Made by a program: the position numbers and the translations under genes. From a virus, in the IMG/VR virus record IMGVR_UViG_3300020443_000089, positions 1-40,073 of that record: a stretch of 40,073 nt of DNA; one strand, written 5' to 3'. Shown one piece after another: positions 11,536 through 28,371 of this stretch. The first letter of the stretch is position 1, and the number at the start of each line of letters is the position of its first letter. The notes below the pieces were generated by a model that worked only from the letters and a program-made list of their open reading frames with translations, made no database searches and had not been told where the DNA came from.

Positions 11536-11536
11536 C

Positions 11537-12039: not shown

Positions 12040-12040
12040 T

Positions 12041-12304
12041 ATGCCAAACCAGCAACAGCACTACAATCAGCACCCCGCCACACAACCCGTAGACGCATCT
12101 GACGCGCCTAGTGAGGTCGTCCAGCTACTCGGCGATATCAAAGCGCAAAATCAGACCATGATGAGCCAATTTGACGCACTAGAGACTAACATCAGCAAGC
12201 GCGCCACGATGGCGGGTGCGATGGCAGGTGCATTTACTGGTGGTGTGGGCGGTACAGTCGTTAGCCTTGGCATTGAGCTTATCAAAGCTAAGTTTGGAGG
12301 CTGA
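12041..12304 (+). CDS. Unknown Gly/Ala-rich small protein
   Basis: This 87-residue protein has a polar N-terminus rich in Gln/His, a short coiled coil (24-52), and a glycine-zipper-like hydrophobic segment (ATMAGAMAGAFTGGVGG region, 55-80). Glycine zippers insert in membranes or self-associate. It lies between the coiled-coil protein and the small terminase. It could contribute to the lysis set, but no family is recognised. Confidence 0.65.
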   Translation: MPNQQQHYNQHPATQPVDASDAPSEVVQLLGDIKAQNQTMMSQFDALETNISKRATMAGAMAGAFTGGVGGTVVSLGIELIKAKFGG

Positions 12305-12307
12305 TCG

Positions 12308-12808: not shown

Positions 12809-12915
12809 CCGAATTTGAAACCAAGCTGCTTGAACGATTAAAGACCATTAGCAGTCAGCTGTCATGGGTTTGTATCTGGCTATTTATCATTATGCTAACG
12901 ACGTGTGCGAGATAA
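12805..12915 (+). CDS. Tiny membrane peptide between the terminase genes
   Basis: The predicted product has 36 residues with a GTG start at 12805, AAGGA seven bases upstream, and GTGA overlap with the DUF1804 stop. An amphipathic N-terminal helix (EFETKLLERLKTISSQL) is followed by one membrane helix (SWVCIWLFIIMLTTC). The gene fills the only gap between the terminase genes exactly. No family can be claimed at this size. Confidence 0.5.
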   Translation: MTEFETKLLERLKTISSQLSWVCIWLFIIMLTTCAR

Positions 12916-12916
12916 C

Positions 12917-14539
12917 ATGAAAAACAAAGAGTTTGCTGATCGCCTAAAGGATATTGCCCGTGCGCTGCAAGCCGACATCGATGCGCACTGCAATGACTGG
13001 GATAATGATCCTGCTGCGATCAAAGAGCGCGTTGAAAAAGTCAATGATAAAGTCACAGGCTTTGAGTACTTTGTCACGCACTACTTTCCGCACTATCTGC
13101 GCAACCCGTCGCAGTCGCAGCTGCATAAGTATCTGTTTGCTCGTCTACCACAGATATTATCGTCTGAGCGCTCAGAGCTTGATGCTTTGGCCGCGCCGCG
13201 TGGTGAGGCAAAATCAACCATCGTCACCCGTCTGTTTGCCCTGTACTGTGTTGTCACCGATCAGAAGAAATACATTGCCATCATCTCTGACAGTATCGAT
13301 CAGTCGGCTGAATTTTTGCAAGCCATTAAGACTGAATTAGAAAGTAATCCGCGTATCAGTACCGACTTTCCAAAGATTGTTGGTGCAGGCCGTATCTGGC
13401 AGTCGTACACGATACATACTGCCAACGGCATTAAAATCCAGTGCGCGGGCGCACGCAAAAAGATGCGCGGCTGGGTACATGGTGCGTACCGTCCTGATTT
13501 GGTGCTGCTCGATGATCTTGAGAACGATGAAAACGTAGAGAATCCAGATCAGCGTGACAAGCTACAAAAGTGGCTATTACGCACGCCACTAAAGCTGGCC
13601 GCCGCTGGCGAAAAAATGGATGTCGTCTACATTGGGACTATCCTGCATTACGACAGCGTGCTCAATCGCATCTTAAAGAATAAAGGTTGGACGACGCGCG
13701 TATTCCGTGCATTGCTCGAATGGCCCGACAACATGAAACTGTGGGACGAATGGGAAGCCATTTATCACGATGAGGGCGAAGCGACCGCTATTGCGTTTTA
13801 TCAAAAAAACAAGCGCAAGATGGACAAAGGGTCAAAAGTATCTTGGGATGCGCGCCCTATTCTTGAGCTGATGATTATCCGCGCCCGTGATGGTCATAGC
13901 AACTTTGACAGCGAGTTACAAAACGATCCTGCTGCTGGTGAAGACTCGCCATTTACCGATTCAATCAATTACTGGCGTGAGCTGCCTGCGGGGCTGGTCT
14001 ACTTTGCTGCGCTCGATCCGTCACTTGGCAAAAAAGGCGCTAAGCGTAAGCGTGGTGATCCGTCCGCTATTGTCATTGGTGGCTATGATCGCTTGCATGG
14101 CAAATTATATATCGTATTGGCAGACATCCAGCGCCGCACACCTGACAAAATCATATCTGATGTCATCAAATATCAAAAAGAGTACAACTGCATGGGCTGG
14201 GCAATTGAAGCGGTGCAGTTTCAGGAGTTTTTACGCACTGAGATTGTCAAACGATCCGCCGCCGCTGGTGTCCATGTGCCTGCAATCGCGGTTAATCCGC
14301 ACAATGACAAAATATTGCGCATCACCGCACTACAGCCACATATGGAAAACGAGTTGCTGTTATTGCATCACAAACAAAAGACGCTGATTGCACATTTTAC
14401 GCATTTTCCCAAGCACGAAAACGATGACGGCCCCGATGCGACTGAGATGGTCTGGAAGCTTGCGACCAGTTTTGCTAGAGCCGCTGCGACGCCAATGTCT
14501 GCATTCAACGTCCCTCAGCCAAGCTTGTACCACAATTAG
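12917..14539 (+). CDS. Large terminase (ATPase and nuclease)
   Basis: This 540-residue motor protein packages phage DNA. The ATPase part has Walker A-like APRGEAKST (93-101) and Walker B DLVLLDDLE (194-202), followed by a coupling region around YIGTILHYDS. The C-terminal RNase H-like nuclease shows ALDPSLGKKG with a metal-binding Asp, AIEAVQFQEF and DGPDATEMVW. This is the layout of the phage large-terminase C-terminal family. ATG 12917 is preferred over GTG 12905, which lies inside the preceding small gene. Portal follows 15 bp after its stop. Confidence 0.95.
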   Translation: MKNKEFADRLKDIARALQADIDAHCNDWDNDPAAIKERVEKVNDKVTGFEYFVTHYFPHYLRNPSQSQLHKYLFARLPQILSSERSELDALAAPRGEAKSTIVTRLFALYCVVTDQKKYIAIISDSIDQSAEFLQAIKTELESNPRISTDFPKIVGAGRIWQSYTIHTANGIKIQCAGARKKMRGWVHGAYRPDLVLLDDLENDENVENPDQRDKLQKWLLRTPLKLAAAGEKMDVVYIGTILHYDSVLNRILKNKGWTTRVFRALLEWPDNMKLWDEWEAIYHDEGEATAIAFYQKNKRKMDKGSKVSWDARPILELMIIRARDGHSNFDSELQNDPAAGEDSPFTDSINYWRELPAGLVYFAALDPSLGKKGAKRKRGDPSAIVIGGYDRLHGKLYIVLADIQRRTPDKIISDVIKYQKEYNCMGWAIEAVQFQEFLRTEIVKRSAAAGVHVPAIAVNPHNDKILRITALQPHMENELLLLHHKQKTLIAHFTHFPKHENDDGPDATEMVWKLATSFARAAATPMSAFNVPQPSLYHN

Positions 14540-14554
14540 TGATAAGGATAGATT

Positions 14555-16045
14555 ATGTTTGGCATAAAACCTAAAAAGCAAAAAGTAGATCAAAAGACAC
14601 TCTATGTCGCTTTTGATAGTGCGCTTGAGAGTAGCGATGCGGTCAGCGCTGACGTGCTGCTACAAGAAACGGGCAAGACGCGCCAAGAGTTGCTGGACGC
14701 AGTGATGGCAGATGACGAAGTGCTTAGTTGTCGTGCAGATATTGAAGGTGCTATCAGCGCCGCTGCTTGGCGTATCTGGGGTGATGACGTCGATGAAGCG
14801 TTAATCAATCGATTGTATCGCATGTTTAGGCGACTGTATAAAGATTTTGAGGGTATTGCGGTACTGGCAACTTTTAACGGCTACTGTGTCGGTGAGTATG
14901 TGTTTAAGCGCGAGTCTGACGGTTTTTTGACTATCGATAAAGTCTTATCAAAAGATGGCGAGCTAGACAATTACACGCCTCAGCGTGATGGCTCGGTTTT
15001 GTTGGCGACAGAAGATGACGCCATTGAGATCAATCAAACGATTAAGTACCTAGTGCTTACCAGTAAGGCCGTTCCCGCGCGTCCTGCGGGTGAAATGATG
15101 ATTGTCCGTGCTTATCCTGCGGTCGCACTGCGTCGCCGCGAATGGGCGTATGCAGGTCAGTTTATTGCCCGTTACTCACAGCCCTACGTCGTCGGTATGC
15201 AAGGCTCTGACAGTGGGTTTGGTACGACGCTTAGCGACTTTACCAGTAAGATATTTAGCTTTATCAATGGCGGTGCTGCTGGTATTGGTAAAGACGACAA
15301 GATTGAGATGCACCAGCTGTCAGGTGATGGTGCTGCGTTTGAGTTGTTTGAGCGTCTTGCCAATCGCCGTATCCAAAAGCTGCTACTGGGACGCGTCAAG
15401 ACCAGTGAGCTTACCGCAGGGTCGCGCTCAGCGCAAGAAACGGACGATGAAGCCCGCCAAGACCGAGTGATGTCCTATCTAGGGCTGATGACTCGCGGCA
15501 TACAACATGCTATCGATGCCATTATCGCGGTAAATCAAGCATGGGGTGTGCCAATAAACGCCCCGCAAGGCATCTGGTTTGAATATCCAGTCGTCAAAAA
15601 ATTCAGCAAAGACGAGGCTGAGATTGACGCAAAATACGTCAGTACTGGGCAAGTGCGCTTGACTAAGCAAAGACTGCTCAATGTCGGCTATGAAGAGTCT
15701 GAGTTTGAGATTATTGATAATGCTGCGCCTGCACCGACACCAGTACCGTCTACGCAGCAAATACTTGACCAGCTATCACTGCAATACAAGCTGTCGCAAA
15801 ACCTACCAACCATCATTACTGACCCTGCGACGGATGACGACATCGAGCAAGAGCGCGGTTTGATGGAGCCTAAAATGGCTGCACTCCTTGCACTGGCGCA
15901 AAAATGTGACAGCTATGATGAGCTAAAGCTAGGGCTTGCCAAGCTTGATCTGCCTGATGAGGGTTTGGTTGCCGACCTTGCTGACAAATTGGTCAATAGC
16001 TTTACTGATGGCCTAGGTGTCAATAAGGACGATAAAGATGCCTGA
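14555..16045 (+). CDS. Portal protein (DUF935, Mu gp29-like)
   Basis: This 496-residue protein forms the dodecameric DNA channel at the head vertex. DUF935 features include DIEGAISAAAWRIWG (62-76), RAYPAVALRRREWAYAGQFIARYSQPYVVG, and the conserved LLLGRVKTSELTAGSRSAQ. An extended Asp/Pro-rich C-terminal tail follows. It comes directly after terminase and overlaps the Mu F gene by 8 bp, the Mu gene order 28-29-30. Confidence 0.95.
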   Translation: MFGIKPKKQKVDQKTLYVAFDSALESSDAVSADVLLQETGKTRQELLDAVMADDEVLSCRADIEGAISAAAWRIWGDDVDEALINRLYRMFRRLYKDFEGIAVLATFNGYCVGEYVFKRESDGFLTIDKVLSKDGELDNYTPQRDGSVLLATEDDAIEINQTIKYLVLTSKAVPARPAGEMMIVRAYPAVALRRREWAYAGQFIARYSQPYVVGMQGSDSGFGTTLSDFTSKIFSFINGGAAGIGKDDKIEMHQLSGDGAAFELFERLANRRIQKLLLGRVKTSELTAGSRSAQETDDEARQDRVMSYLGLMTRGIQHAIDAIIAVNQAWGVPINAPQGIWFEYPVVKKFSKDEAEIDAKYVSTGQVRLTKQRLLNVGYEESEFEIIDNAAPAPTPVPSTQQILDQLSLQYKLSQNLPTIITDPATDDDIEQERGLMEPKMAALLALAQKCDSYDELKLGLAKLDLPDEGLVADLADKLVNSFTDGLGVNKDDKDA

Positions 16046-17702
16046 TGCTTATACGGATGCCAACTTTAACATCTTGCCCAATGCCGAGGCGATTGCTGCT
16101 TTTAATGCAAAGATGGTTGGCTCAAGCTTTAGTTATCTAGATGTGCTGGCGCATGAGCACGCTGTCGCCTTTACCGTCGCTAAGATGATGGACGCTGATA
16201 TGCTGGCCGAGACTCGTGATGCTATCAGCGCAGCATTAGAAAACGGTACGGATTTTCGTGACTTCCAAAAGCGTCTGAAGCCGTATCTGATGAGTAAAGG
16301 CTGGTGGGGTGAGCAAGTCATGAGCGACCCAAAAGACGGCTCAGTACAAAAAGTACAACTAGGCTCAACCCGTCGTCTACGGACTATCTATCAAACAAAC
16401 CTGCACACCGCATACGCGGCTGGTCAATGGGATCGTATACAGCAGACTAAAGACGCACTGCCATATCTGCAATATATGCCGTCCTTAGCAACCCGCAAGC
16501 GACGCGACCACAAGCAGTACTATGGCATCATTAGACCTGTTGACGACCCAATCTGGCAGCAAATACTACCGCCAAATGGTTACGGGTGTCTGTGCTGGGT
16601 TAAGCAGCTAACACGCGCCCAAGCCGAACGTGCGGGCGGCGTCACTGAAGATAAAGACATCGAGTACGAGGAAATTGAAAACCCACGTACAGGCAAGACA
16701 GAGCGTGTGCCGACGGGTATTAGCTTAAGCTTTGCGCATAATCATGGCGATAGAATTGGCTCACTACTAAAAATTGCTGAAGGTAAGCATGGTAGTGACT
16801 TTGCCAAGCAGCTGCAAGACGAGGCTAATAAGATACTAGCACGCTACAACGTACCTGAAATAGCAACGGCTATATTGCCCGCTGCTGCTCAGTGGCAAGA
16901 AGCTGCTGCCATTGGTAAAGAAATCTACCGCAAGCACGCCGAGACATTTGATGCCGTCGATTTGGATGAAGCGTACGCATTTTCAGATGCGCTTATAGAG
17001 GTCATGGAGCGTGAGGGCGTGCCCACTGGGGCGCTTGCTAAGCTTGGCGGTGACAAGACCAGTGAGGTGCAAGCGATATTGGGGCGCTATCCGTCATCGT
17101 GGGTCGATAAAGCCAATGAAGCTGGTACGACCTATGTCAGAGAATTGCCGACTCGTGCATTTCACTTGTATGTTGATAGCGATCAAACCTCGAACGTCTT
17201 AAAAACACAAATATCAAGGCATAAGCAGCTGAAAGTGTTTGCTAAATTCGTCGATGATATTGCGCCAGGCGACAGCTTTATGAAAGTTGGCAAGATGGCA
17301 AAAGGTAAGATGGATGCGGCAAGCTTTGATGTTGCCATCCATGAATACGGTCATCGTTTACAAGCCGTCATGCCTGAACTAGACGCTTATTTTAAACAGC
17401 TATGGATAGACCGCACCAAGGGCGAGCGCACGCGACCACTGGCGCTGATACAAAAAGAACGCGGCGAATATCCGTATTACGCACCAAGCGAAGTCGGCCG
17501 CCGAGACAACTTTGCCAATGTCTATATCGGTCGTAACTATGGCAGTGATACAGACCCTAAGCCGCTTGAGCTGATTACTATGACGATGCAAACAATCTTA
17601 GGTAGCGGTCAAGCGCAATCGCTTACGATAAAACACTTGTTAGATAATGACCCTGATATGCTATACTTAGCCATCGCCTTATTGACAAGATACACGCCAT
17701 GA
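16038..17702 (+). CDS. Mu F-like minor head protein with C-terminal metallopeptidase-like domain
   Basis: This 554-residue protein. Residues 1-235 are a Mu F/SPP1 gp7-type minor head domain (RTIYQTNLHTAYAAGQWDR; PPNGYGCLCWVKQL at 178-191). A further roughly 250 residues follow, longer than the morphogenesis part requires. This region carries an HExxH zinc-protease motif, HEYGH (435-439, in FDVAIHEYGHRLQ), with Glu511 (PLELITMTMQT) a possible third ligand. MuF proteins with variable C-terminal toxin domains are a known phage polymorphic-toxin class, usually with an immunity gene next door; the acidic 116-residue gene downstream fits. ATG 16038 has AAGGA eight bases upstream. Confidence 0.88.
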   Translation: MPDAYTDANFNILPNAEAIAAFNAKMVGSSFSYLDVLAHEHAVAFTVAKMMDADMLAETRDAISAALENGTDFRDFQKRLKPYLMSKGWWGEQVMSDPKDGSVQKVQLGSTRRLRTIYQTNLHTAYAAGQWDRIQQTKDALPYLQYMPSLATRKRRDHKQYYGIIRPVDDPIWQQILPPNGYGCLCWVKQLTRAQAERAGGVTEDKDIEYEEIENPRTGKTERVPTGISLSFAHNHGDRIGSLLKIAEGKHGSDFAKQLQDEANKILARYNVPEIATAILPAAAQWQEAAAIGKEIYRKHAETFDAVDLDEAYAFSDALIEVMEREGVPTGALAKLGGDKTSEVQAILGRYPSSWVDKANEAGTTYVRELPTRAFHLYVDSDQTSNVLKTQISRHKQLKVFAKFVDDIAPGDSFMKVGKMAKGKMDAASFDVAIHEYGHRLQAVMPELDAYFKQLWIDRTKGERTRPLALIQKERGEYPYYAPSEVGRRDNFANVYIGRNYGSDTDPKPLELITMTMQTILGSGQAQSLTIKHLLDNDPDMLYLAIALLTRYTP

Positions 17703-18049
17703 CGACCATCGACTTTATGTTTGATAGCCAAAAACTGACTTTAGACCTCAAGAAAGGTTTATTGGTCGGTGATCGTGCTGCCAAAAATAAGCTGGTGGCT
17801 ATCATCGATAGTGCGCAGTCGGCAGCGGTGTACTACGGCTCAGACTATACGCCAGTCCCTGCGATTGCGATAGACGACGCTTATCGCAACATTGAGCAGT
17901 TTGCTACTTGCTTGATGTTTGAGTTGCCTGCTGATGAGTTCCCAGCTGCGCTATCGCCTTATGTTGCAAAATGGCCTGATGATTTGGAGCCGCTCACAGA
18001 CGATGAGCAAATGGCCGCTGAGTTGTTAGACGATCTAATGATTTATTAG
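17699..18049 (+). CDS. Small acidic protein, candidate partner of the MuF protein
   Basis: This 116-residue protein is strongly acidic toward the C-terminus (WPDDLEPLTDDEQMAAELLDDLMIY). Its start overlaps the MuF stop by ATGA, so the two are translated together. No family is recognised. By position and charge it resembles immunity proteins paired with polymorphic toxins; that is inference. It is the last gene of late block 1, ending 17 bp before a terminator. Confidence 0.75.
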   Translation: MTTIDFMFDSQKLTLDLKKGLLVGDRAAKNKLVAIIDSAQSAAVYYGSDYTPVPAIAIDDAYRNIEQFATCLMFELPADEFPAALSPYVAKWPDDLEPLTDDEQMAAELLDDLMIY

Positions 18050-18065
18050 CATCGTATCAATCAAG

Positions 18066-18093
18066 AAACCCACCCTAATCGGTGGGTTTTTTT
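18066..18093 (+). terminator. Terminator of late block 1
   Basis: AAACCCACC (18066-18074) pairs perfectly with GGTGGGTTT (18081-18089) across CTAATC, ending in seven T. It is among the strongest in the window. Confidence 0.9.
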
Positions 18094-18133
18094 GTACCTG
18101 CCGTTTATGACCCTCTCAATCATAACCGCAATA

Positions 18134-18155
18134 GCGTTTAACACCCGTTTAATCG
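18134..18155 (+). repeat. 11-bp-spaced CGTTTAA pair, copy 3
   Basis: CGTTTAA at 18135 and 18146. It lies in the 319-bp gap between late blocks 1 and 2. Apart from this pair, the terminator and the promoter, I see nothing in that gap. Confidence 0.5.
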
Positions 18156-18257
18156 CTCGACTGTGAGGCGCAGACGACAAAGCCCTACCCTTATGCGAAT
18201 AATCCCTCTATGACCGCTTAAATCGCAAATTTGAGCAACTTTACTTTTTATGCGTGA

Positions 18258-18306
18258 CTACCTGAACCGCATCATCTAACCGACTATAGCATCGACCATC
18301 ATAATG
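18258..18306 (+). promoter_or_regulatory. Late promoter copy 2 (head block)
   Basis: The 25-bp core at 18258-18282 is identical to copy 1, and CATAATG begins at 18300, again exactly 42 bp from the core start. The 17 bases between differ from copy 1, which shows that only core and -10 box are conserved. The start should fall near 18312, 57 bp before the protease gene. Confidence 0.75.
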
Positions 18307-18368
18307 AGACTTTATCGACACTCTTTATTTTACGTTGTCACGACTTTACTCATTAGCTGGACGTCATT

Positions 18369-19364
18369 ATGCCAAAAGACCATAAAAAGCCAAATATCTA
18401 CCTGCTCTCTGAAGTCAATGTCGCTGATGCCCCTGCTGATGCTGACAAATCCTTGCCGCGTAAGTTTAGCGGTGTCGCCAATAGTGGCAAGCCGTTTAAT
18501 CATTACGGTGAAATGGTTGTCGTTGACTTAACTGACATTCAATACAAAGCAAACGTCCCAGCGCTATTGCTACATGACCGCGCCCAACGTGCGGGCTTTG
18601 GCACGTTAAGCGTTGAAAGCAATCAGTTGATGATGAATGGCTTACTACTTGATAACCAGTTTGGGCGTGAAGTCGCTGAAGAGTCAGATGCTGGTTTTCC
18701 GTGGCAAATGTCAGTCCACGTCAATGCTAACAGTGTCACCGAGCTGGGACAGAACGAGACGGCAACCGTCAACGGTGCGGAAGTTACTGGGCCTTTAGTT
18801 ATCCTCAAAAATTGCAGTGTCAGCGAAGTCTCCTTTACGCCAACGGGCGTGGACTCTGAAACGAACGCGGTTGCTCTTGCTGACAGCGGCATCCCAAAAT
18901 CAACCACTCAACCTAATACACAAAAGGACACCACCATGACTCCTGAAGAAATCGCAGCCCTACAAAAGCAAGTCGCTGACCAAGCGGAAGAAATCAAAAC
19001 CCTCAAAGAAGAAAAGGCCGAGCTGGTCAAAGAAAAGGCTGAAGCTGAAGCCGAAGCAAAAGCTGCCGCTATCGATGCGCAACTGTCACAAGCTGGTTTT
19101 ACCAAAGCTGAAAACGGCGAAGGCTGGGACGGTATCGGCAAAGCAACAATGAATATGCTGCTGTCTGCATCGCCTGAAGATGCCAAAGAGATGATCGGTG
19201 ATTTGCGTGCGCCTGGTAAGCAAGATGGAACGCCAGAATGGTTGCTCAGCGAGCAGCACAAGCCTAGCGGTAATGGTGGCGGTCAAGACCGTCAGTTGTC
19301 GTCTAATCCGATGCTTGCCAATGCTGAAGCACGCGCCATCGAGGCGTCAAAAAACTATATTTAA
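18369..19364 (+). CDS. Prohead protease with fused scaffold (Mu I/Z-like)
   Basis: This 331-residue protein. Residues 10-180 are a prohead-protease domain; likely catalytic residues are His69 (LLLHDRAQ) and Ser115 (PWQMSVHV), followed by VSEVSFTPTGVD. Residues 190-300 are a Glu/Ala/Lys coiled-coil scaffold. The protein helps capsid subunits assemble and is then degraded. An internal start at 18936 would make the scaffold alone, as for gene Z inside gene I of Mu. It is the first gene after late promoter 2. Confidence 0.9.
   Translation: MPKDHKKPNIYLLSEVNVADAPADADKSLPRKFSGVANSGKPFNHYGEMVVVDLTDIQYKANVPALLLHDRAQRAGFGTLSVESNQLMMNGLLLDNQFGREVAEESDAGFPWQMSVHVNANSVTELGQNETATVNGAEVTGPLVILKNCSVSEVSFTPTGVDSETNAVALADSGIPKSTTQPNTQKDTTMTPEEIAALQKQVADQAEEIKTLKEEKAELVKEKAEAEAEAKAAAIDAQLSQAGFTKAENGEGWDGIGKATMNMLLSASPEDAKEMIGDLRAPGKQDGTPEWLLSEQHKPSGNGGGQDRQLSSNPMLANAEARAIEASKNYI
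18936..19364 (+). CDS. Scaffold protein from an internal start
   Basis: ATG 18936 is in frame with the protease gene (codon 190) and has AAAAGGA seven bases upstream, a stronger ribosome site than that of the full gene. The product is 142 residues: MTPEEIAALQKQVADQ, coiled coil to about residue 50, then a Gly/Pro-rich tail. Nested scaffold genes are known in Mu and lambda (C/Nu3), so separate production is very likely. Confidence 0.75.
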   Translation: MTPEEIAALQKQVADQAEEIKTLKEEKAELVKEKAEAEAEAKAAAIDAQLSQAGFTKAENGEGWDGIGKATMNMLLSASPEDAKEMIGDLRAPGKQDGTPEWLLSEQHKPSGNGGGQDRQLSSNPMLANAEARAIEASKNYI

Positions 19365-19449
19365 GCGATAACCGTGCTGGGCAAACGTCCAGCGCGGACT
19401 GATGTTTCAACCACTTATTAGCTTTATCGATTAATCCTAGGAGCACAAC

Positions 19450-19794
19450 ATGCCAAGCGAACCTTACGTCACTATTGGTGATATTTTGAAGTCTGAAGCA
19501 GACCCGAATAGCCGTATCGCCATTCCCGCCACTGCCGGCACCAAGACTGGGCAACTGGTCAAATACACCGAGCGCAACGAGTATCTCATTGCGTTGACCG
19601 ACGAGACAAACGGCGAAGTACTGGTACAGCCGCATAATTGCACTATCTTTTTGGGCAGTATCCCGCAAGCTAATATCGACGCGGTGTTTACTGATGAAGA
19701 AGGTTCGGTGCCACTGACAGTTGCCACGTTAAAAACCCAAGGCGATCTGTACGGTATCAAGTATATCGGCACGCCTAAAGCTGCAACCACTTAA
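19450..19794 (+). CDS. Head decoration protein (lambda D-like)
   Basis: This 114-residue protein of the lambda head-decoration family would trim and stabilise the capsid at three-fold positions. Typical features are the N-terminal arm before the fold and the short beta-rich core (GTKTGQLVKY, VYVQP-like VLVQPHNCTIFLG). AGGAG precedes ATG 19450. It lies directly before the E-type major capsid gene, as D and E do in lambda. Confidence 0.88.
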   Translation: MPSEPYVTIGDILKSEADPNSRIAIPATAGTKTGQLVKYTERNEYLIALTDETNGEVLVQPHNCTIFLGSIPQANIDAVFTDEEGSVPLTVATLKTQGDLYGIKYIGTPKAATT

Positions 19795-19810
19795 GCGCTG
19801 ACTAACAGCC

Positions 19811-19840
19811 TTTTAAACCCGATCTAAATCATATTTAACG
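19811..19840 (-). repeat. 11-bp-spaced TTTAA triplet, copy 4
   Basis: TTTAAA at 19812, TCTAAA at 19823 and TTTAAC at 19834 are each 11 bp apart. They lie 25 bp before the major capsid start codon. Confidence 0.5.
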
Positions 19841-19864
19841 CAGTATCAATATTAGGAATTACTT

Positions 19865-20854
19865 ATGCCTTTATCTAACGACAGTCAGTATGGCGTAGTG
19901 CCAATGACCGAGGCAATTAACCGATTGCCTGCCAATCCTACCATTATCCGCGAGCTTGGCTTATTTAAGCCGCAGTACGAAAGCACAACGTCTGTCGCTG
20001 TGGAATCCAAAAACGGTGTATTGACGCTAGTCAATGCCGTGCCTCGTGGAACGCCTGGTGATCCTGTAGCAAGCAATCTTGGCAATCGTCAAGTCTTTGA
20101 GATGTTGCATTTGCCTAAGAGCGATATTGTCCGCGCTGATGATGTACAAAACGTGCGAGCTTTTGGTAGTGGCAACAAAGCGCAAACGGTCGCTGAAAAG
20201 GTCAATGACAAACTCGCTGATATGAAGTCAGACATTGAATATACCCGCGAGCATCTAATGCTTGGCGCATTGTCAGGCAAAATTTTGAACGCTAACGGCG
20301 ACCCAATTGTCGATATTTATGATCGCTTTGGCCTCACTCGCCAAACCATCACCTGGACTTTATCGGCGACTAATAGCAATGTCGGATCAATGATTGACAG
20401 CGCCGTGCGTAATTTGAGCAAAAAACGTGGTGGTGAGCCAGTCAATGGCTGGATCGTGCTTTGTTCACCAGAGTTTATGGATGCAGTTATCTACCATAAG
20501 ACCGTCGTGAGCATCTATGAGCGCTATCAAGAAGGCTCTGCCTATCGTAGCGGCGATACGAGCGTCGGTTTTGAGCATAAGAAATTGAAGTTTATTAACT
20601 ACGACCATGTATTCGACTCTGGCCTACAGATCAAAGCAGGTGAAGCGATTATTTTGCCTGCTGGTACCAAGAACACGTTTAAAGAGTTCTTTGCCCCTGC
20701 GGATATGTCGTCCACAGTCAACACCAAGGCGCTACCGTACTACGCAAGTCGTGAAAAGCTCGATCACGACAAGGGCTGGAGTCTTGAAGCGCAATCTAAC
20801 CCATTGCCGCTGTTACTACGTCCTGAGCTGGTCGCTACGCTCAAAATGGCCTAA
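19865..20854 (+). CDS. Major capsid protein (lambda gpE family)
   Basis: This 329-residue protein of the lambda E-type HK97-fold capsid family matches typical length (about 340). Recognisable stretches are LGLFKPQYESTTSVAVESK (32-50), VNDKLADMKSDIEYTREHLMLGAL, and PYYASREKLDHDKGWSLEAQSNPLPLLLRPEL at the C-terminus. AGGAATT precedes ATG 19865. The pairing of E-type capsid with a Mu-type portal shows module mixing. Confidence 0.94.
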   Translation: MPLSNDSQYGVVPMTEAINRLPANPTIIRELGLFKPQYESTTSVAVESKNGVLTLVNAVPRGTPGDPVASNLGNRQVFEMLHLPKSDIVRADDVQNVRAFGSGNKAQTVAEKVNDKLADMKSDIEYTREHLMLGALSGKILNANGDPIVDIYDRFGLTRQTITWTLSATNSNVGSMIDSAVRNLSKKRGGEPVNGWIVLCSPEFMDAVIYHKTVVSIYERYQEGSAYRSGDTSVGFEHKKLKFINYDHVFDSGLQIKAGEAIILPAGTKNTFKEFFAPADMSSTVNTKALPYYASREKLDHDKGWSLEAQSNPLPLLLRPELVATLKMA

Positions 20855-20922
20855 TCGCCTTTCCCCTTGACTGGCGACAGTCGGTCAAGGGTCTTTATAC
20901 AAACTCTAACCAGGACAAAATC

Positions 20923-21147
20923 ATGAGTGATGATAAACCAAAAGTGAAAGGCTATCGCCAGTTATCACCAGCTGAAATTGAGCTGATGAATAGAGTTAAA
21001 GCAAAAGGCGCAGAGATTGGCGAGTTAATCGCTGAGCTACGCGCTATGGACGACTTAGATCAGCGCTGGATTGCTACTGGTGCAACTGATATCCAAAAGG
21101 GCTTGATGTGCGTCACGCGCGGTATCGCCCAGCCTGATAGTTTTTAG
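20923..21147 (+). CDS. acb2: Acb2-type anti-CBASS cyclic-nucleotide sponge
   Basis: This 74-residue helical protein closely follows the Acb2 pattern: GYRQLSPAEIELMNRVKAKG at 10-29, GELIAELR, RWIATGATDIQKGL, and the C-terminal VTRGIAQPDSF. Acb2 from Pseudomonas transposable phages is a hexamer that binds cyclic nucleotide signals and blocks CBASS immunity. Two residues I recall as binding the ligand there, Tyr11 and Lys26, are both present here at the same numbers. It lies just after the major capsid gene, as in the Pseudomonas phages. AGGA precedes ATG 20923. Confidence 0.85.
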   Translation: MSDDKPKVKGYRQLSPAEIELMNRVKAKGAEIGELIAELRAMDDLDQRWIATGATDIQKGLMCVTRGIAQPDSF

Positions 21148-21155
21148 GACTAGCC

Positions 21156-21587
21156 ATGATAACCCAACAAGATTTAATCGACCGCTTTGGCGAAAAAGAA
21201 CTCATCAAGCTGACCGATAGAGACAATTATCAGGTCATTGTTGAGTCTGTCGTTGATACGGCCATTGCTGACGCTGAGGGTGAAGTCGCTTCATATTTGC
21301 GATCAGCCAATCTGGTTAGTGTCGATGCGCTGGGTAAAGTTATCTATCGCAATGGCGCAAAACTGCCATCTGATCTAGCGCTGCATACTTGTAATATCGC
21401 CCGTTATTATCTGTATGGCAACGGTACAACCGAAACGGTCGAAAAACGCTATGACGATGCGGTTAAGTGGCTCGATAAGGTCAAAAAAGACCCAACGATG
21501 CTAACTGGGCCTATCGCTGAGCAGCCCAGTGCTAGTGGTGGTATCAGCGTCATACCTCAAACCGTTCCTAATCTCTATCAGGACTGA
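21156..21587 (+). CDS. Head-tail connector (Mu gp36-like, DUF1320)
   Basis: This 143-residue protein starts MITQQDLIDRFGEKELIKLTD, the hallmark of the DUF1320 family, followed by DTAIADAEGEVASYLRS and CNIARYYLYG. It would act at the portal/neck junction. AGGA precedes the start. It lies between acb2 and the Mu G homologue, the Mu order 36-G. Confidence 0.93.
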   Translation: MITQQDLIDRFGEKELIKLTDRDNYQVIVESVVDTAIADAEGEVASYLRSANLVSVDALGKVIYRNGAKLPSDLALHTCNIARYYLYGNGTTETVEKRYDDAVKWLDKVKKDPTMLTGPIAEQPSASGGISVIPQTVPNLYQD

Positions 21588-21589
21588 CT

Positions 21590-22039
21590 ATGCAGATCAA
21601 TGTCAACAGTCAATTACCAGAGCTACGTGACAATGTCAGCGAGATCTATCTCAAGCTTGGCGGCGACTTAACGCCGCTCATGCGCGGTGTGGCTGCTGTC
21701 ATTGAAAACAGCACCCGCGATAGATTCCGTACCAAGACCGCGCCTGATGGCTCGACTTGGGCAGACCTCAAACCGTCTACGCTTGAGGCCAAAAACGGAC
21801 GTGGTAGCAAGATGGTTGAATATGGCGATCTCATGCGCTCTATCACTAGCCACGCCAACAGTACGTCGGCGGTAGTCGGTACAGATAGACCGTATGCCAA
21901 GTATCACCAGACTGGCACCAAAAACAGCGACGGCTCAGAGCGTATGGAAGCCCGTCCGATATTTGGTATCTCGACTCAGGATCGCACCGATGTACTCGAT
22001 CTCATGAACGACTTTATGGCAGGAGTAGTCAATGGCTAA
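21590..22039 (+). CDS. Virion morphogenesis protein (Mu G-like tail completion)
   Basis: This 149-residue protein of the phage virion morphogenesis family has ENSTRDRFRTKTAPDGSTWADLKPST (39-64), VEYGDLMRSI, and the YAKYHQTGTKN motif. It joins or completes the neck. It overlaps the next gene by 8 bp. Confidence 0.93.
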   Translation: MQINVNSQLPELRDNVSEIYLKLGGDLTPLMRGVAAVIENSTRDRFRTKTAPDGSTWADLKPSTLEAKNGRGSKMVEYGDLMRSITSHANSTSAVVGTDRPYAKYHQTGTKNSDGSERMEARPIFGISTQDRTDVLDLMNDFMAGVVNG

Positions 22040-22508
22040 TGTACCAGCTTGGAGCGACAACGCTTTGGCGTGTTACCCGTATTTGCTTGAACGCTTGAAC
22101 GAGGTGACTCAAGTAAAGCGCGTGTTAGAAGCGGCTGACTTTGCAGCGATTAGCGGTGCTAACCGTACTCAAGTTCCGCTTGATGGCGCGGTCTATTTGA
22201 TACTAGATGGCTATACGCCAACGTCAAGCAATGGCAACAGCCGTGAGCAGCTGATAGAGATTGGCTTTAGTGTGATATTGACCAAGCAGCAATTTACACC
22301 TAACCCTGCGGCTGACGATGTCGGTAAGACACTGACAGCAATATCAAAAGCGCTACAAGGCTTTGATCCAAAGAATGAACAAGGCCAAGCGTTAGTGACC
22401 GAGCCATTTGAGTCACGCACCCCGCTACCGATCCAATACGAAGATGGTTTTGCTTTTTTCCCGCTGCGCTTCACCGCTGAAGTAGCAATCTTATCTGATA
22501 ATCAATAA
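22032..22508 (+). CDS. Tail terminator-like protein (Mu gp37-like, DUF1834)
   Basis: This 158-residue protein has the features of the gp37/tail-terminator group: a long strand region (GAVYLILDGYTP, EIGFSVILTKQQF), and a C-terminal FAFFPLRFTAEVAIL strand. It caps the tail tube on the head side. AGGAG precedes ATG 22032 inside the preceding gene. Confidence 0.8.
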   Translation: MANVPAWSDNALACYPYLLERLNEVTQVKRVLEAADFAAISGANRTQVPLDGAVYLILDGYTPTSSNGNSREQLIEIGFSVILTKQQFTPNPAADDVGKTLTAISKALQGFDPKNEQGQALVTEPFESRTPLPIQYEDGFAFFPLRFTAEVAILSDNQ

Positions 22509-22517
22509 GGATTTACC

Positions 22518-22721
22518 ATGCTCAAACGATATCTAAAACCTATTTTGGCGACTTTACTTATAGGGTTGGCGACAGGCGTCAAAAACTGTTTTCAATCGCC
22601 ACTCACTGTAAATAAAGATTACGCCATTACATATTCAGTTAGTACTTTGGACTTTCGCGCGCCTTGGTTTTTAATTGGGCATAACGCGCGTAATAACCGC
22701 CGCACTAAGTCTAAAAAGTAA
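22518..22721 (+). CDS. Unknown small protein with N-terminal hydrophobic helix
   Basis: This 67-residue protein has a short hydrophobic helix at about 7-21 (KPILATLLIGLATGV) and a basic C-terminus (HNARNNRRTKSKK). AAGGA precedes ATG 22518. No family is recognised. It stands between the tail terminator and the tube, where Mu has small tail genes. Confidence 0.6.
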   Translation: MLKRYLKPILATLLIGLATGVKNCFQSPLTVNKDYAITYSVSTLDFRAPWFLIGHNARNNRRTKSKK

Positions 22722-22754
22722 ATTTAACGTTTTATTAATATACGTTTGTACATC

Positions 22755-22774
22755 CATTAAACGACATTTAAACC
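22755..22774 (-). repeat. 11-bp-spaced GTTTAA pair, copy 5
   Basis: CATTAAACGACATTTAAACC, 19 of 20 identical with 8587-8606. It is 15 bp before the tail-tube start codon. Confidence 0.65.
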
Positions 22775-22789
22775 AGAAGGAATAAGCAC

Positions 22790-23533
22790 ATGGCACAACA
22801 ACGAGGCAAAAAGTATAGCGGTGATCTGTATGCTCGCAAATGGGGCACAGACGACGGCTTTGAAAAAATCGGTAACGCCACTGAGCTGACCACGAGCAAA
22901 GAGTCTGAAAGCAATCAGCTCACCAGTACAGGTCGAGGAGAATATGGTGAAGTACTAGAGTCAGAAAGCGTGCCTGGCGCGACTGAGATCTCTATCAAAT
23001 TCAACACTTTTGATAAACACGCTCTGGCTCGCGTGATGATGGGCGAAGCGGTTGATTTATCAACCACGCCTATCGCGTTTACTGATGAGCCGTTGACCGT
23101 TGGCTTAAACTGGCTAAAGCTTGCCTATCGTGACATCGATGAGACGACGCTGGTACTGACTGACGATGCTGATGCGGTCATCGATGCGACGACCTATGAA
23201 GTCAATCCACGTCTAGGCTTGGTGCGATTTAAAGATACGGCCACCGTCACCGCAGGCGCTGATATTACTTATAGCGGCTCAACCAAAGGCTCGGCAGGCT
23301 ATCAGATTGATGCCAATACGCTGACGTCATTACCGCTTGAGATGTACCTTGACGGTAAGGATCGTATCTCTGGTCAAGATGGCATCTTAGACTTACCACA
23401 CGCCGACTTATCAAGTGATAGCGATATCAACTGGTTTAGCGACGACTGGTGGGAAGGTGGATTGTCTGGCCCGCTTATCAAAGACCCAGGCAAGCCGACC
23501 ATGCGATTCACTGAGTACAAGCAGCAGTCTTAA
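22790..23533 (+). CDS. Major tail tube protein
   Basis: This 247-residue beta-rich protein forms the tail tube. It combines a tube domain (GDLYARKWGTDDGFEKIGNATEL; VPGATEISIKFNTFDKHALARVMMG) with a loop region DEPLTVGLNWLKLAYRDID...VIDATTYEVNPRLGLVRF that resembles an inserted Ig-like module. No sheath gene is adjacent, which argues for a non-contractile tail. AAGGAA precedes ATG 22790, and a terminator follows. Confidence 0.85.
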   Translation: MAQQRGKKYSGDLYARKWGTDDGFEKIGNATELTTSKESESNQLTSTGRGEYGEVLESESVPGATEISIKFNTFDKHALARVMMGEAVDLSTTPIAFTDEPLTVGLNWLKLAYRDIDETTLVLTDDADAVIDATTYEVNPRLGLVRFKDTATVTAGADITYSGSTKGSAGYQIDANTLTSLPLEMYLDGKDRISGQDGILDLPHADLSSDSDINWFSDDWWEGGLSGPLIKDPGKPTMRFTEYKQQS

Positions 23534-23564
23534 GCGTAATCGCTATATAGTTTGATAAACACCC

Positions 23565-23602
23565 AAAGAGCAGTAGACAAATTTTGTTTACTGCTCTTTT
23601 TT
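23565..23602 (+). terminator. Terminator after the tail tube gene
   Basis: AAAGAGCAGTA (23565-23575) pairs perfectly with TACTGCTCTTT (23589-23599) and a run of T follows. It ends late block 2 before the moron-like genes. Confidence 0.9.
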
Positions 23603-23603
23603 C

Positions 23604-23643
23604 GTATATGATGCGATAGATAATATGCTTATATCTCAGGTGG
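23604..23643 (+). promoter_or_regulatory. Possible moron promoter and ribosome site
   Basis: AT-rich gap between the terminator and the lipoprotein gene holds TATGAT (23606) and TAATAT (23621), either of which could be a -10 box; no good -35 is seen. AGGTGG (23639-23644) is a strong ribosome site for ATG 23647. Confidence 0.4.
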
Positions 23644-23646
23644 AAT

Positions 23647-24240
23647 ATGAAAAAGTTGATAGCACCATTGTTTTGTATGATTTTGGCAGGCTGCGGGGGT
23701 GGTTATGATGAGATTGACCAAAAACGAGGCGCATTAATCGGCAGTGACCCCTCAACGTCTAATCCGTCTAACCCATCCAACCCCTCAACGCCCAATCCAT
23801 CGACTGAAGGTTTGTGGGAATATAACCAAACAGGTACATCAAGGTTTGCTGAGATACGATCATCAAATACAATACCGACGTCTAACGAGCTTAACGATGC
23901 AATCATGATTGTTCGTATACAGAATTTTATAGATTCTGCCGGCACACAAAAAGACTATTTGACAATTACGGTGTTGTTTGCAGATACGGATTGCCTAGTT
24001 AACTGCCAACTACGTCACAAAAAAAATGGCAGTACTAGCGGCGTCTATCGCGTCAGACAGAGCATAAACGGTGTATTCAACGAGAATAGCTTTGCGTCAG
24101 GTGATATGGAGAAACTTATAAAGCAGATTAAAATATCAAACAAATCAACGATTAGTGTACCGCTAATAGGTGTGCCAGATGCTGAGTTTGAGTTTGATTT
24201 TTCTGGCTATGATTCAGACTATATGGATGCTGATCGTTAA
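23647..24240 (+). CDS. Phage-encoded lipoprotein (moron-like)
   Basis: This 197-residue protein has a lipoprotein signal peptide ending ILAGC, acceptor Cys16, a glycine run, and a Ser-Asn-Pro repeat linker (SNPSNPSNPSTPNPS, 38-52). A beta-rich domain with two neighbouring cysteines (TDCLVNCQL) follows. It lies between a terminator and late promoter 3, in more AT-rich sequence than the structural genes, the classic setting of a moron. Phage lipoproteins of this kind often block receptors against superinfection; that role is inferred, not seen. Confidence 0.8.
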   Translation: MKKLIAPLFCMILAGCGGGYDEIDQKRGALIGSDPSTSNPSNPSNPSTPNPSTEGLWEYNQTGTSRFAEIRSSNTIPTSNELNDAIMIVRIQNFIDSAGTQKDYLTITVLFADTDCLVNCQLRHKKNGSTSGVYRVRQSINGVFNENSFASGDMEKLIKQIKISNKSTISVPLIGVPDAEFEFDFSGYDSDYMDADR

Positions 24241-24284
24241 ATTATATTTACCTAATAAATCATCAATAAACCTAAGAGGTTGAT

Positions 24285-24509
24285 ATGGCAAGTAAAATAC
24301 AAGAATCATTGGAGTTTTGTCCTACTTGCAATCGCAAGACGGTACATCTAAGGCAGACCAAGCAGATGAGCTGGGGGTTGCATATATTTTTTACGTTTAT
24401 AACGTTTGGTGGTTGGCTGTTGATTTGGGGATTGATGGCTGTTTGGCATGGATTGACCAAGCCTATTGGGGGTAAAAAAACCTGCTCACAGTGCGGACTT
24501 GAGCACTAA
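24285..24509 (+). CDS. Zinc-ribbon membrane protein (moron-like)
   Basis: In this 74-residue protein two CxxC pairs, Cys12/Cys15 (CPTC) and Cys67/Cys70 (CSQC), flank a hydrophobic hairpin (about 31-56, LHIFFTFITFGGWLLIWGLMAVW). Both cysteine pairs could meet on one membrane face to bind zinc. AGAGG precedes ATG 24285. Its stop codon touches the core of late promoter 3. Function is unknown; pairing with the lipoprotein suggests an accessory cell-surface or exclusion role. Confidence 0.75.
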   Translation: MASKIQESLEFCPTCNRKTVHLRQTKQMSWGLHIFFTFITFGGWLLIWGLMAVWHGLTKPIGGKKTCSQCGLEH

Positions 24510-24558
24510 CTACCTGAACCACATCATCTAACCGCTAGCGACCCAATCCGTAACAATG
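24510..24558 (+). promoter_or_regulatory. Late promoter copy 3 (tail block)
   Basis: The core at 24510-24534 differs from copies 1 and 2 by one base (CTGAACCACATC). AACAATG begins at 24552, exactly 42 bp from the core start. The expected start near 24564 lies inside the hairpin just downstream. Confidence 0.7.
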
Positions 24559-24559
24559 A

Positions 24560-24585
24560 CCCTAGTAATTTACTAGGGTTTTTTT
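24560..24585 (+). terminator. Hairpin and T-run abutting the tape measure start
   Basis: CCCTAGTA (24560-24567) pairs perfectly with TACTAGGG (24571-24578) across ATT; seven T follow and the next base is the ATG. It has the form of a terminator, yet its AGGG is also the only Shine-Dalgarno-like sequence for the gene. Transcripts from upstream would form the hairpin; those from promoter 3 would lack part of its left arm. Confidence 0.75.
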
Positions 24586-27500
24586 ATGGCAAATCGCTTA
24601 GATACTGAGCTGCTCATCACTGCTGGTGTGGACGGCTTACAACATATCGACAAGCTAATCGCAAAAATAGAAGAAGCTGGCGGTGATACCGAGCAGCTGC
24701 GCGATGCTGCCCGCCGATTGAATAGCGAATGGGATGATTTGTCCGCTGAAGAGCAAGCCTCTAGGCTGCGTGACCTTGGCAATGCCGCCAATAATAGCGC
24801 TGGTGACTTAGGGCTGTTGCGACGCCGTACAGATGAAGCAAACAATTCAACCGATAGACTGGGTCAAGGTGTCGATAGCGTCAAAGGTGCGCTCAATGGC
24901 CTAAAAGGGTTGATAGCCACCCTTGGTATATCGGTCGGTGCAACAGAGCTGCTAGAGATGGCAGACTCTTACAAAACCCTAGAAGCAAAAATAAAACTAG
25001 CCACTGGTGAGGGTGTCAACTTTATCAATGGCTTTGGCGGTGTGCAAGATATCGCTAACGAGACTTTTACCAGTATAGAGGATACAGGCGAGCTATTTGC
25101 TCGTATTAGCCGTGCTGGTAAAGAGATGAATCTGGCACAGCAAGACGTGCTATCGGTTACTAAAACGATTAACGAGGCGATACAGCTATCAGGCGGTAGC
25201 GCTGAGTCTAATCAAGCCGCGATTACGCAGCTGATCCAAGGCTTGCAGTCAGGTGTCGTACGCGGCGAAGAGTTCAACTCCATTATGGAGCAGTCGCCAC
25301 GCCTCGCACGCGCGATGGCAGATGGTTTAGGCGTCACATTGGGTCAACTACGGTCAATGGCAGCTGAAGGCAAGCTGACATCTGAGGTCGTCATCAATGC
25401 GGTGCAATCACAAGGCGAAGCGATCCAGTCTGAATTTGATGCGATGCCACTTACGATTGGTCAATCGTTAACACAGTTAAAAAACAATTTTTTAAGTTTC
25501 GTCGGTGATATTGATAAGCAGCTCAATTCATCAGGCGGCGTGTCGTCTATTATCCAGCAAATGGCAGAAAGCTTAGATGATATCGATCCCGCTACCGTTG
25601 ATGCCGTAAAAGAGGCATTTGCCCAGCTTGGCGAAGTCGCTCAATTATTAGGCGAAAATGTATTCACAGTAACAGATAATTTAGGTGAGGTCTGGAACGC
25701 TTTTGATGGCACGACTGCTGCTGGTGAAAAGGTTGGACTCTTAACTAAGATAGTTCAAGAGCTGTCTATTTTTATCGGTCATATTGCCGATGGTGTCAAA
25801 GGTTTACAAATCGCAAGTGACCTCGCTTGGGGCGGAATGCTTAAGGGCATCAGCTTGCTGCTCGAAGCCTACGCCAAGCTAACAGGAGGCAGTACTGACG
25901 CCGCTGATGCCATGATGGCAAAAGGCGACGAGATGGTCGCCCGTGCCAAAAAGAATGCTTTAGAATTTGAATCATCTGCGGTCGCTGCTGCTGATAACGC
26001 TGCTAAGACACATCAACAAAGACTGGATGAAACAGCGGTTAAGTCACGTCAAGCGTATGAGCAAATGGCTGCTGACGGTACAGCATCAGCGGGTAAGATT
26101 CAAGAAGCCTATGTCAGAGCGGCGCTGGACGCTATCAAAGCCAATGGTGATGTCGTCGATGCAAGATTAGAGGCTGAGCTTGCTGAGCAAGGTCTTCAAG
26201 CTGAAATTAGTGAGACAGGTCGCGTTACCATTGTTGCTATCGCTGAGCAGTCTAGAGCAATGCAAGATGCTGCTGGCATCTCAGAAGAGCTGAGCCGCGA
26301 GATTGATAAAGCCTCGGCATCGTTTAAGACGCTAGGTCTTGATGCTGAATATTTTGCAACTGGCATGGATAGTAAGGTCACAGCGTCTCTGTCCGCATTC
26401 AGTGAGGTGGCGCAAATAGCGGGTGACGATACCGCTATGCTCGCTCGCGCCTATGGCGCTGCATCTGAAAAGGTCGGTACCAATGTCCAAGCTCAAGCCA
26501 TGCTTCAGCAGCAACTACTTGCATCGACAAATGGTAACAGCCAACTCGCTGACGAAGTCAAACGTGTCGCGATCGAGCAGAAAAACGCCAAGAGCGCGGC
26601 TGATGACCAAGCAGTGGCACTATCTCGCCTCGGCATCAGCATGGATGCCGTCAATCAAAGCATGAGCGCATCAGGGCTTGAGATGGTGACGACGCTACGC
26701 AATGGCATCACCGCTATCAAAGAACAAGCCACCAGTGCCGATGCCTTAAAATCGGCGCTAACTCAAGCATTAGATACTTCACTTGCTGCGGCCAAGACCA
26801 AAGCAGATTTTGAGGCTATTAGCCAAACGCTTAAAGCGGCTGGTGTGTCTGGCCAAGTCACTGCTGAGCAAATGAAGCTACTACAAGTGGGTATGCAGGG
26901 TGGCGCTGATGCGGTAGATGCGCAAACCAAGGCGTTAAACAATAATGCTCTCGCAAACACCTACAACACCAATGCCACAGCTGATAACGCAAATGCCAAA
27001 AAAGAACAGGCTGACGCTGCTGATAAAGCCGCCGCCGCTGTTGCCAAGTCTACCCAAAACGAAAGCGCGAGCCTTGCGGTCATGCAGCAGATCACAGGCA
27101 CTATCAAAGCCAAGATAAGCGCACTTGAGCAGATGGGCGCAACCACTGAGCAAGTCGATGGCGTCTGGCGCAGTTTAACGGACAGCATGAATGGCATGAA
27201 GTTTCTAGGCATCGCTGATTTTGCAAGCAACATGCAGCGTGTCGATGATGCTGTCAGCGAGCAAATTACCAGCTTTGAGAATGCCAAAAATAGAGCTGAA
27301 GAGATGACGCAAGCACTCAGTGGTAGCGCTGTGACCAGCCGTGACCTCGTCGACGCTCAGCACGCGCTGCGCAAAGCAACGGACGCCAATGTGCAAGGCA
27401 TGATACGCCTAGATGACCAAACCTTAGCTAATCTACAAAACGCTATCGACGGTGCTCGCACCCGTATGCAAGGACTGTCTGACGATGCCAAAAATACTGC

Positions 27501-27918
27501 CGACAGCTTAGAAGCAACGCTTGCGAAACTACAAGGCAACGAAGACAAGGCGCGCGACATAGAGCAAACCCGCAAACTTACTGAGCTTGAAGAAAAACTC
27601 AACGAAGCCAAAGCCCGTGGCAATACTGAAGAAATAGCTCAGCTCAATCGTGCCCTCGCTCTGCAAAAGCAAATCAACCGTGAGGAAGACAAAGCGGCTC
27701 GCGAGCGTGAACGTCAATCTCAGCAAAGCAGCACACCGCAATCATCTACTCGTCAGTCTAGCAACACTAATCCCGCCAGTACTGGCAGTAATAACAATGC
27801 AGTTGAGGTTGTAGACGCATTGGATGCACGTATCGAAGCTGCCAAGAAACAAGCGGCAGCTGAAGCAGTGGCAAACTTTACACAGCAACTCAAAGACGAG
27901 GCGAAACGACGCACATGA
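24586..27918 (+). CDS. Tail tape measure protein
   Basis: This 1110-residue protein sets tail length. Residues 100-300 are the tape-measure N-terminal domain (ELLEMADSYKTLEAKIKLATGEG; QLIQGLQSGVVRGEEFNSIMEQSPRLARAMADGLG). A hydrophobic Gly/Leu-rich region around 395-430 follows, then long Ala-rich coiled coils, a heptad block near 985-1055 (EEKLNEAKARGNTEEIAQLNRAL) and a Ser/Gln/Thr linker. Start codon is set against the hairpin at 24560-24585. The tail-assembly chaperone frameshift pair usually found before it was not seen. It overlaps the next gene by ATGA. Confidence 0.94.
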   Translation: MANRLDTELLITAGVDGLQHIDKLIAKIEEAGGDTEQLRDAARRLNSEWDDLSAEEQASRLRDLGNAANNSAGDLGLLRRRTDEANNSTDRLGQGVDSVKGALNGLKGLIATLGISVGATELLEMADSYKTLEAKIKLATGEGVNFINGFGGVQDIANETFTSIEDTGELFARISRAGKEMNLAQQDVLSVTKTINEAIQLSGGSAESNQAAITQLIQGLQSGVVRGEEFNSIMEQSPRLARAMADGLGVTLGQLRSMAAEGKLTSEVVINAVQSQGEAIQSEFDAMPLTIGQSLTQLKNNFLSFVGDIDKQLNSSGGVSSIIQQMAESLDDIDPATVDAVKEAFAQLGEVAQLLGENVFTVTDNLGEVWNAFDGTTAAGEKVGLLTKIVQELSIFIGHIADGVKGLQIASDLAWGGMLKGISLLLEAYAKLTGGSTDAADAMMAKGDEMVARAKKNALEFESSAVAAADNAAKTHQQRLDETAVKSRQAYEQMAADGTASAGKIQEAYVRAALDAIKANGDVVDARLEAELAEQGLQAEISETGRVTIVAIAEQSRAMQDAAGISEELSREIDKASASFKTLGLDAEYFATGMDSKVTASLSAFSEVAQIAGDDTAMLARAYGAASEKVGTNVQAQAMLQQQLLASTNGNSQLADEVKRVAIEQKNAKSAADDQAVALSRLGISMDAVNQSMSASGLEMVTTLRNGITAIKEQATSADALKSALTQALDTSLAAAKTKADFEAISQTLKAAGVSGQVTAEQMKLLQVGMQGGADAVDAQTKALNNNALANTYNTNATADNANAKKEQADAADKAAAAVAKSTQNESASLAVMQQITGTIKAKISALEQMGATTEQVDGVWRSLTDSMNGMKFLGIADFASNMQRVDDAVSEQITSFENAKNRAEEMTQALSGSAVTSRDLVDAQHALRKATDANVQGMIRLDDQTLANLQNAIDGARTRMQGLSDDAKNTADSLEATLAKLQGNEDKARDIEQTRKLTELEEKLNEAKARGNTEEIAQLNRALALQKQINREEDKAARERERQSQQSSTPQSSTRQSSNTNPASTGSNNNAVEVVDALDARIEAAKKQAAAEAVANFTQQLKDEAKRRT

Positions 27919-28316
27919 CCTGGACACTAAAACGCAATACCGATCAGGCGTTGATGAGCCTGCACAACCAATACCACTGGATTGATGAATACGCGTGGTC
28001 GTCGCTTAAGCAGTCAGCGCCCGTCTACACGTTAACAGGCGCGACGGACATACAGCAAGGCACGATGCTTGCGGGTCGTCCCATCACGCTTGATTGTACC
28101 AATGCTCGCATCAAGCGCAGCGAGCTTGAGAAACTGCAAGCGTGGGCGCAAGTGCCTGAGCTGACAATGACGCTGACGCATCCTGATGGCCGCAGCTTTA
28201 CCGTCCTCTTTGCTGCCCCTGCATTGACTGACATAAACCCGCTCAAAGTCATACGCGCAGGTGACGAGCATCCAGATGACAAGTTTACGGCCAACATCAA
28301 TTTATTGACCGTTTAA
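27915..28316 (+). CDS. Tail protein after the tape measure
   Basis: This 133-residue beta-rich protein (AGRPITLDCTNARIKRSELEKLQAWAQVPELTMTLTHPDGRSFTVLF) looks like a compact distal-tail domain. It overlaps the tape measure stop by ATGA, so it is coupled. It would be expected at the tail tip; family name not recognised. Confidence 0.75.
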   Translation: MTWTLKRNTDQALMSLHNQYHWIDEYAWSSLKQSAPVYTLTGATDIQQGTMLAGRPITLDCTNARIKRSELEKLQAWAQVPELTMTLTHPDGRSFTVLFAAPALTDINPLKVIRAGDEHPDDKFTANINLLTV

Positions 28317-28332
28317 CTGGCTATCAAGTCGG

Positions 28333-28353
28333 CATTAAACCCAATTTAAAAGC
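28333..28353 (-). repeat. 11-bp-spaced repeat, copy 6
   Basis: CATTAAACCCAATTTAAAAGC follows the same layout as copies 2 and 5. It lies 19 bp before the next tail gene. Confidence 0.5.
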
Positions 28354-28371
28354 AGCTCAAAGGATTATTAA

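Follow-up and report, generated by a model that had tools for sequence, protein, structure and literature searches.

A predicted short-form Acb2 gene between the capsid and adaptor genes of a Psychrobacter Mu-like prophage

The window analysed here, i.e. the whole stretch of 40,073 nucleotides of IMG/VR record IMGVR_UViG_3300020443_000089, contains within a phage head operon a small open reading frame that raises two questions: is its product an Acb2, a phage-encoded sponge against CBASS, as the initial annotation proposed, and does the host lineage meet such defences? The frame, which begins with ATG and ends with TAG exactly at the limits given in Table 1, encodes the following 74 amino-acids protein: MSDDKPKVKGYRQLSPAEIELMNRVKAKGAEIGELIAELRAMDDLDQRWIATGATDIQKGLMCVTRGIAQPDSF. 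A profile search against the Acb2 family had been suggested as a check, and it gave a clear answer: all 58 positions of the Pfam profile PF24729 (Acb2_Tad1_hairpin) are matched (E 2.1e-16), with a score of 60.3 bits for a curated cut-off of 27 bits. By phmmer, the Acb2 of phage PaP2 is the sole match among PDB entries (8h2j, E 1.9e-15; 8ixz, E 3e-15), and the pairwise alignment to 8h2j is whole-length (residues 3-74 versus 3-93). In PHROGs the protein falls into an unnamed family, phrog_717 (E 8e-18). A search of NCBIfam gave no match, a Rv2632c-like Pfam match was discarded because its score is below the cut-off of that family, and a search of phage records at the DNA level found nothing.

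The predicted fold points the same way. The AF2 model, obtained for a single chain from an alignment of 63 relatives, has a mean pLDDT of 89 and is a helical hairpin (helices 16-40 and 47-69) with a helical turn at residues 11-13. When this model was submitted to Foldseek, Acb2 8h2x was the only PDB match with E <0.001; 8h2x and 8h2j have a probability of 1.00 and a TMq of 0.68-0.70, and they are followed by more Acb2 chains and by T4 Vs.4 (7uq2), with unrelated helical bundles trailing far behind in E. VIA-align placed three Acb2/Vs.4 entries on top (rmsd 2.5-3.2 over 68-69 residues), with a Z of 7.6 that is weak on its own for a helical hairpin; the Acb2 assignment is carried by the sequence match. 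Profile, pairwise alignment and fold thus agree that the Acb2 pattern extends over the whole length, as had been claimed, and, judged by sequence and model, the product of 20923-21147 is a genuine Acb2-family protein. Since the PF24729 hairpin model is common to Acb2 and Tad1, one could think of a Tad1-type sponge aimed chiefly at Thoeris gcADPR. This is highly improbable: in Tad1 a four-stranded beta-sheet precedes the hairpin at the N-terminus (PMC12043709), whereas our protein has 74 residues and no strand in the AF2 model, and its sequence and fold matches go to Acb2 and Vs.4. There were no Tad1 chains among the Foldseek and VIA-align matches, a result which by itself excludes nothing.

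The residues that matter for binding are in place. Y11 and K26, the latter of which we take to be a ligand-binding residue of Acb2, align unshifted with those of PaMx33/PaP2 Acb2, in agreement with the initial annotation, and each is kept in 62 of 63 aligned homologues; T55, Q58, G60, R66, A69, P71 and F74 are kept in all 63. In T4 Acb2, changing Y8 to Ala disrupts binding and changing T68 to Met lowers it (PMC12657218, PMC12657230); these two positions align with Y11 and T55. The dinucleotide-pocket residues (Y11, T55 and, presumably, K26) are both unshifted in the alignment and nearly invariant. The base-stacking F82 of T4, however, corresponds to A69 here, as it does to an Ala in PaP2 Acb2, so that the ligand contacts of the 74-aa protein would not be identical to those of T4. 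More generally, the likeness to T4 Vs.4 lies in the fold, the KGY motif and the K, T and R/QP positions, at an overall identity of ∼18% and with a longer hairpin in the 88-aa T4 protein. The PaP2/PaMx33 Acb2 (p26; 8h2j, 8h2x, 8ixz) is closer: homology is whole-length, with 42% identity by tblastn, and N-terminal length, Y11, K26, the T55 equivalent, the QPDSF C-terminus and the hairpin fold are shared. The claim that the N-terminus is shorter than in the Pseudomonas form did not hold, since GYR occupies residues 10-12 in both. The two proteins differ in the loop between the two long helices, which has ∼19 residues more in the PaMx33 protein (93 aa) than here. Most of the relatives found in IMG/VR have 74-75 amino-acids, so the short form is the commonest.

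Table 1. Features of the window discussed in the text
Feature	Position	Strand	Basis
Mu-like transposable prophage	94..35691		TG...CA ends; 4-bp GAAG repeats at 90-93 and 35692-35695; empty site
Mu-type transposase gene	1899..3878	+	phrog_310, E 8e-163
Major capsid protein gene (lambda gpE type)	19865..20854	+	PF03864 Phage_cap_E, E 7e-82; phrog_29
RNA hairpin of 12 bp in the capsid-acb2 gap, followed by a weak U tail	20864..20891	+	fold, -21.5 kcal/mol
Shine-Dalgarno-like AGGA	20912..20915	+	7 bases before the acb2 ATG; read from the sequence
acb2 gene, short form	20923..21147	+	74 aa; PF24729, 60.3 bits; 8h2j, E 1.9e-15; AF2 pLDDT 89
Mu Gp36-like head-tail adaptor gene	21156..21587	+	PF07030, E 3.5e-26; phrog_195

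The gene belongs to a Mu-like prophage whose limits could be set from an empty site: in the Psychrobacter genome G089 (L138), positions 1-93 of the window are contiguous with positions 35692-38081, at ∼97-98% identity. This fixes the TG...CA ends and the GAAG repeat and, because the site lies in a Psychrobacter genome, identifies the host as Psychrobacter. Besides the transposase (phrog_310), the prophage carries a transposition protein (phrog_296), a repressor, terminase, portal, MuF, protease, capsid, adaptor, neck and tail genes. The insertion (window 1-111) is near the 3′ end of a host gene, the last codons of which change from LNEDGTQQ to LNEVWGSD, leaving it nearly whole. Between the major tail gene and the tape measure gene there are two ORFs, one lipoprotein-like (197 aa, 23647-24240, with 63% relatives in L004 and L007) and one for a 74-aa zinc-ribbon/membrane protein (24285-24509); neither has a PHROG or PADLOC match, neither was found in the related prophages L003 and L006, and both are possibly accessory genes. 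Another ORF, of 116 aa (17699-18049, between MuF and protease), has no family match and, among the compared loci, occurs only in L003 (90%).

In the slot itself, the order is capsid gene, hairpin, acb2 and adaptor gene; the profile matches of the upstream gene bear out the claim that acb2 comes just after the major capsid gene. Spacing is tight, the adaptor gene beginning 8 bases past the acb2 stop codon, which its own AGGA overlaps. Could the protein then be a head component with a structural or assembly function, e.g. an accessory protein of the capsid, whose likeness to Acb2 is limited to the hairpin fold? Its place between capsid and adaptor genes, the spacing and the hairpin past the capsid gene would fit, and so would the case of L122, a P22-like prophage of Psychrobacter genome G041 with an acb2 of the same clade behind a 427-aa gene that stands where a coat gene would and appears to be one. 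We nevertheless consider it very unlikely: acb2 is missing from relatives that share the capsid and adaptor genes, relatives elsewhere adjoin many unrelated genes, e.g. those for portal, ribonucleotide reductase, tail sheath or methyltransferase, and conservation falls on the residues of the ligand pocket. The relatives lacking the gene are L021-L024, with capsid proteins 52-54% identical and a Neisseria-type sequence, GCCGTCTGAA, in the capsid-adaptor gap; their adaptor gene starts ∼14 bases past the capsid stop, with no acb2 and no such hairpin between. By sequence comparison, either the Psychrobacter group gained the hairpin-acb2 stretch or the L021-L024 group lost it. Adjacency to a capsid gene does not extend to the family as a rule, since a cap-E match was found for only 4 of the 63 upstream neighbours, all Psychrobacter relatives; the genes downstream of acb2 relatives vary widely.

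The hairpin is shared by all close Psychrobacter relatives, and its 11 core pairs are paired in 66 of 66 cells in 6 relatives. All changes are one-sided, which amounts to conservation with no compensatory change and is not a covariation proof. A plausible role would be attenuation, or protection of the 3′ end of the capsid message, either of which could set the Acb2 dose. Hairpins akin to it are also present after the protease gene (19372) and after the major tail gene (23565).

The initial annotation also likened the placement to that in Pseudomonas transposable phages. This stands as far as the interval is concerned: in the B3-like phage JBD67, gp38 (an Acb2 of 108 aa, 34% identical to ours) lies in the same interval, directly 5′ of the PF07030 adaptor gene. 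There, however, a 64-aa gene (gp37) separates the presumed capsid gene from acb2, and tblastn detected no similarity between the capsid and adaptor genes of the two phages. The tree speaks for separate acquisitions: the seven Psychrobacter-group Acb2 proteins group together with a support of 99/90, and JBD67, VP882 and PaMx33 fall in a separate clade (99/94). Common descent of the two slots is thus unsupported by the tree, which is itself limited by few columns, and with that limit we infer two entries into the same interval. In PaMx33, acb2 is located behind replication genes (polymerase, primase, pyrophosphohydrolase), as against the head operon here.

Within Psychrobacter, the Acb2 proteins of the prophages L003, L004 and L009 and of genomes G041 and G091 fall in the same clade as ours (99/90), and in L003-L009 and G091 the gene occupies the same slot. 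Two alleles are found there, the second one (L003-L009) being 61-64% identical to that of the window. L003 and L006 are close to our prophage in capsid (96% protein identity), adaptor (94%) and neck (98%), against only 64% for Acb2; at the DNA level, acb2 is 70-76% identical and the flanking genes 89-97%, while the first and last 40-50 bases of acb2 are nearly identical. Conversely, L003 and L004 share 93% DNA identity in acb2 versus 58-72% in the flanking genes. These mosaic identities indicate that acb2 moves between phage backgrounds, most simply, from the sequence patterns, by recombination; together with the empty slot of L021-L024, such swapping within Psychrobacter is as for accessory genes. 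The two residues at positions 49 and 63 show a reciprocal size swap: W49 is paired with A, S or C63 in 61 of 68 proteins, and both the second Psychrobacter allele and G041 combine W63 with A or S49, T4 likewise having W at 63. The dN/dS of acb2 is ∼0.08 versus L005 and roughly 0.2-0.4 between alleles, so that selection is purifying.

Does the host lineage meet CBASS? The search covered 105 genomes of Psychrobacter, the genus to which G002 (P. aquimaris DSM 16329) belongs, and 14 of them have SMODS matches above cut-off. The genes scanned in the SMODS regions are CD-NTases, accompanied by 2TM effectors in L119, L120 and L121 and by a 4TM effector in L128. Type II CBASS with E1-E2 is present in L126, L131 and L132, and the L126 operon ends in NucC; L126 has homologues in L127, L129 and L137, and the likeness of L130 to L128 is confined to layout. 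Genome G002, to which L126 belongs, also carries an acb2 prophage (L004). In addition, genome G045, which matches the host flank of the window at 98% identity, encodes a CD-NTase sharing 97% identity with the L126 enzyme. NucC is switched on by cA3, a ligand for which Acb2 has a second binding site (PMC12043709). The CBASS operons of Psychrobacter genomes therefore support the claim of a host lineage exposed to CBASS. Differing CBASS operons lie behind the same 758-aa gene (L126, L127, L128, L129, L137 and L120), a locus which is a defence insertion hotspot in several Psychrobacter genomes. Detectable acb2 was found in only 6 of the 105 genomes, among which G002 alone also gave a CD-NTase in the SMODS search; an acb2-CBASS association was considered, but with 6 versus 14-16 genomes and one overlap the counts are too small for a statistical link. 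One genome of the 105, G072, has an mCpol gene together with one for a Cap15-like beta-barrel protein (L143 3781-4809, minus strand), which on their sequences are a Panoptes-like pair. Panoptes is set off by Acb2 (PMC12657218). With both CBASS and Panoptes present, Psychrobacter offers grounds for keeping Acb2 as well as for losing or altering it.

This leads to another possibility, an Acb2 with lost or changed function, e.g. tuned away from dinucleotides or a relic. The two alleles differ at 36% of residues, with W49/C63 in one and A49/W63 in the other, and Panoptes in the genus would favour loss or retuning. But the frame is intact, dN/dS is well below 1 and the pocket residues are kept, and we regard this as unlikely. 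Very probably, then, on the evidence of sequence, model and analogy, the 74-aa protein is an Acb2 acting as a sponge against CBASS. Acb2 forms homohexamers that have three sites for dinucleotides and two for trinucleotides. By analogy with the characterised homologues, the protein would be expressed from the late head operon once the prophage is induced or a cell infected, and would most likely assemble as a hexamer of two-helix hairpins, the pockets between protomers binding cyclic dinucleotides and possibly also trinucleotides, e.g. cA3. CBASS effectors, i.e. the membrane 2TM/4TM proteins and the NucC nuclease, would thereby be kept inactive.

A new member of the family leaves the known mechanism of Acb2 unchanged. 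It does extend Acb2, already well supported, to Moraxellaceae phages, and it makes clear that the short 74-aa form is usual among close relatives, while the crystal structures derive from longer forms. At this point we may only speculate, with little confidence, that Psychrobacter Mu-like phages use the slot past the capsid gene to swap Acb2 alleles with differing ligand ranges and that the choice of allele follows local defences: for example, one allele could serve against cA3 (NucC-CBASS) and the other against dinucleotides (2TM/4TM CBASS), or one could avoid the Panoptes decoy. Be that as it may, two alleles carried by phages that hardly differ elsewhere, within a genus that has NucC-type CBASS, membrane-type CBASS and Panoptes, constitute a natural comparison, through which the specificity of the sponge versus host defences becomes directly testable.
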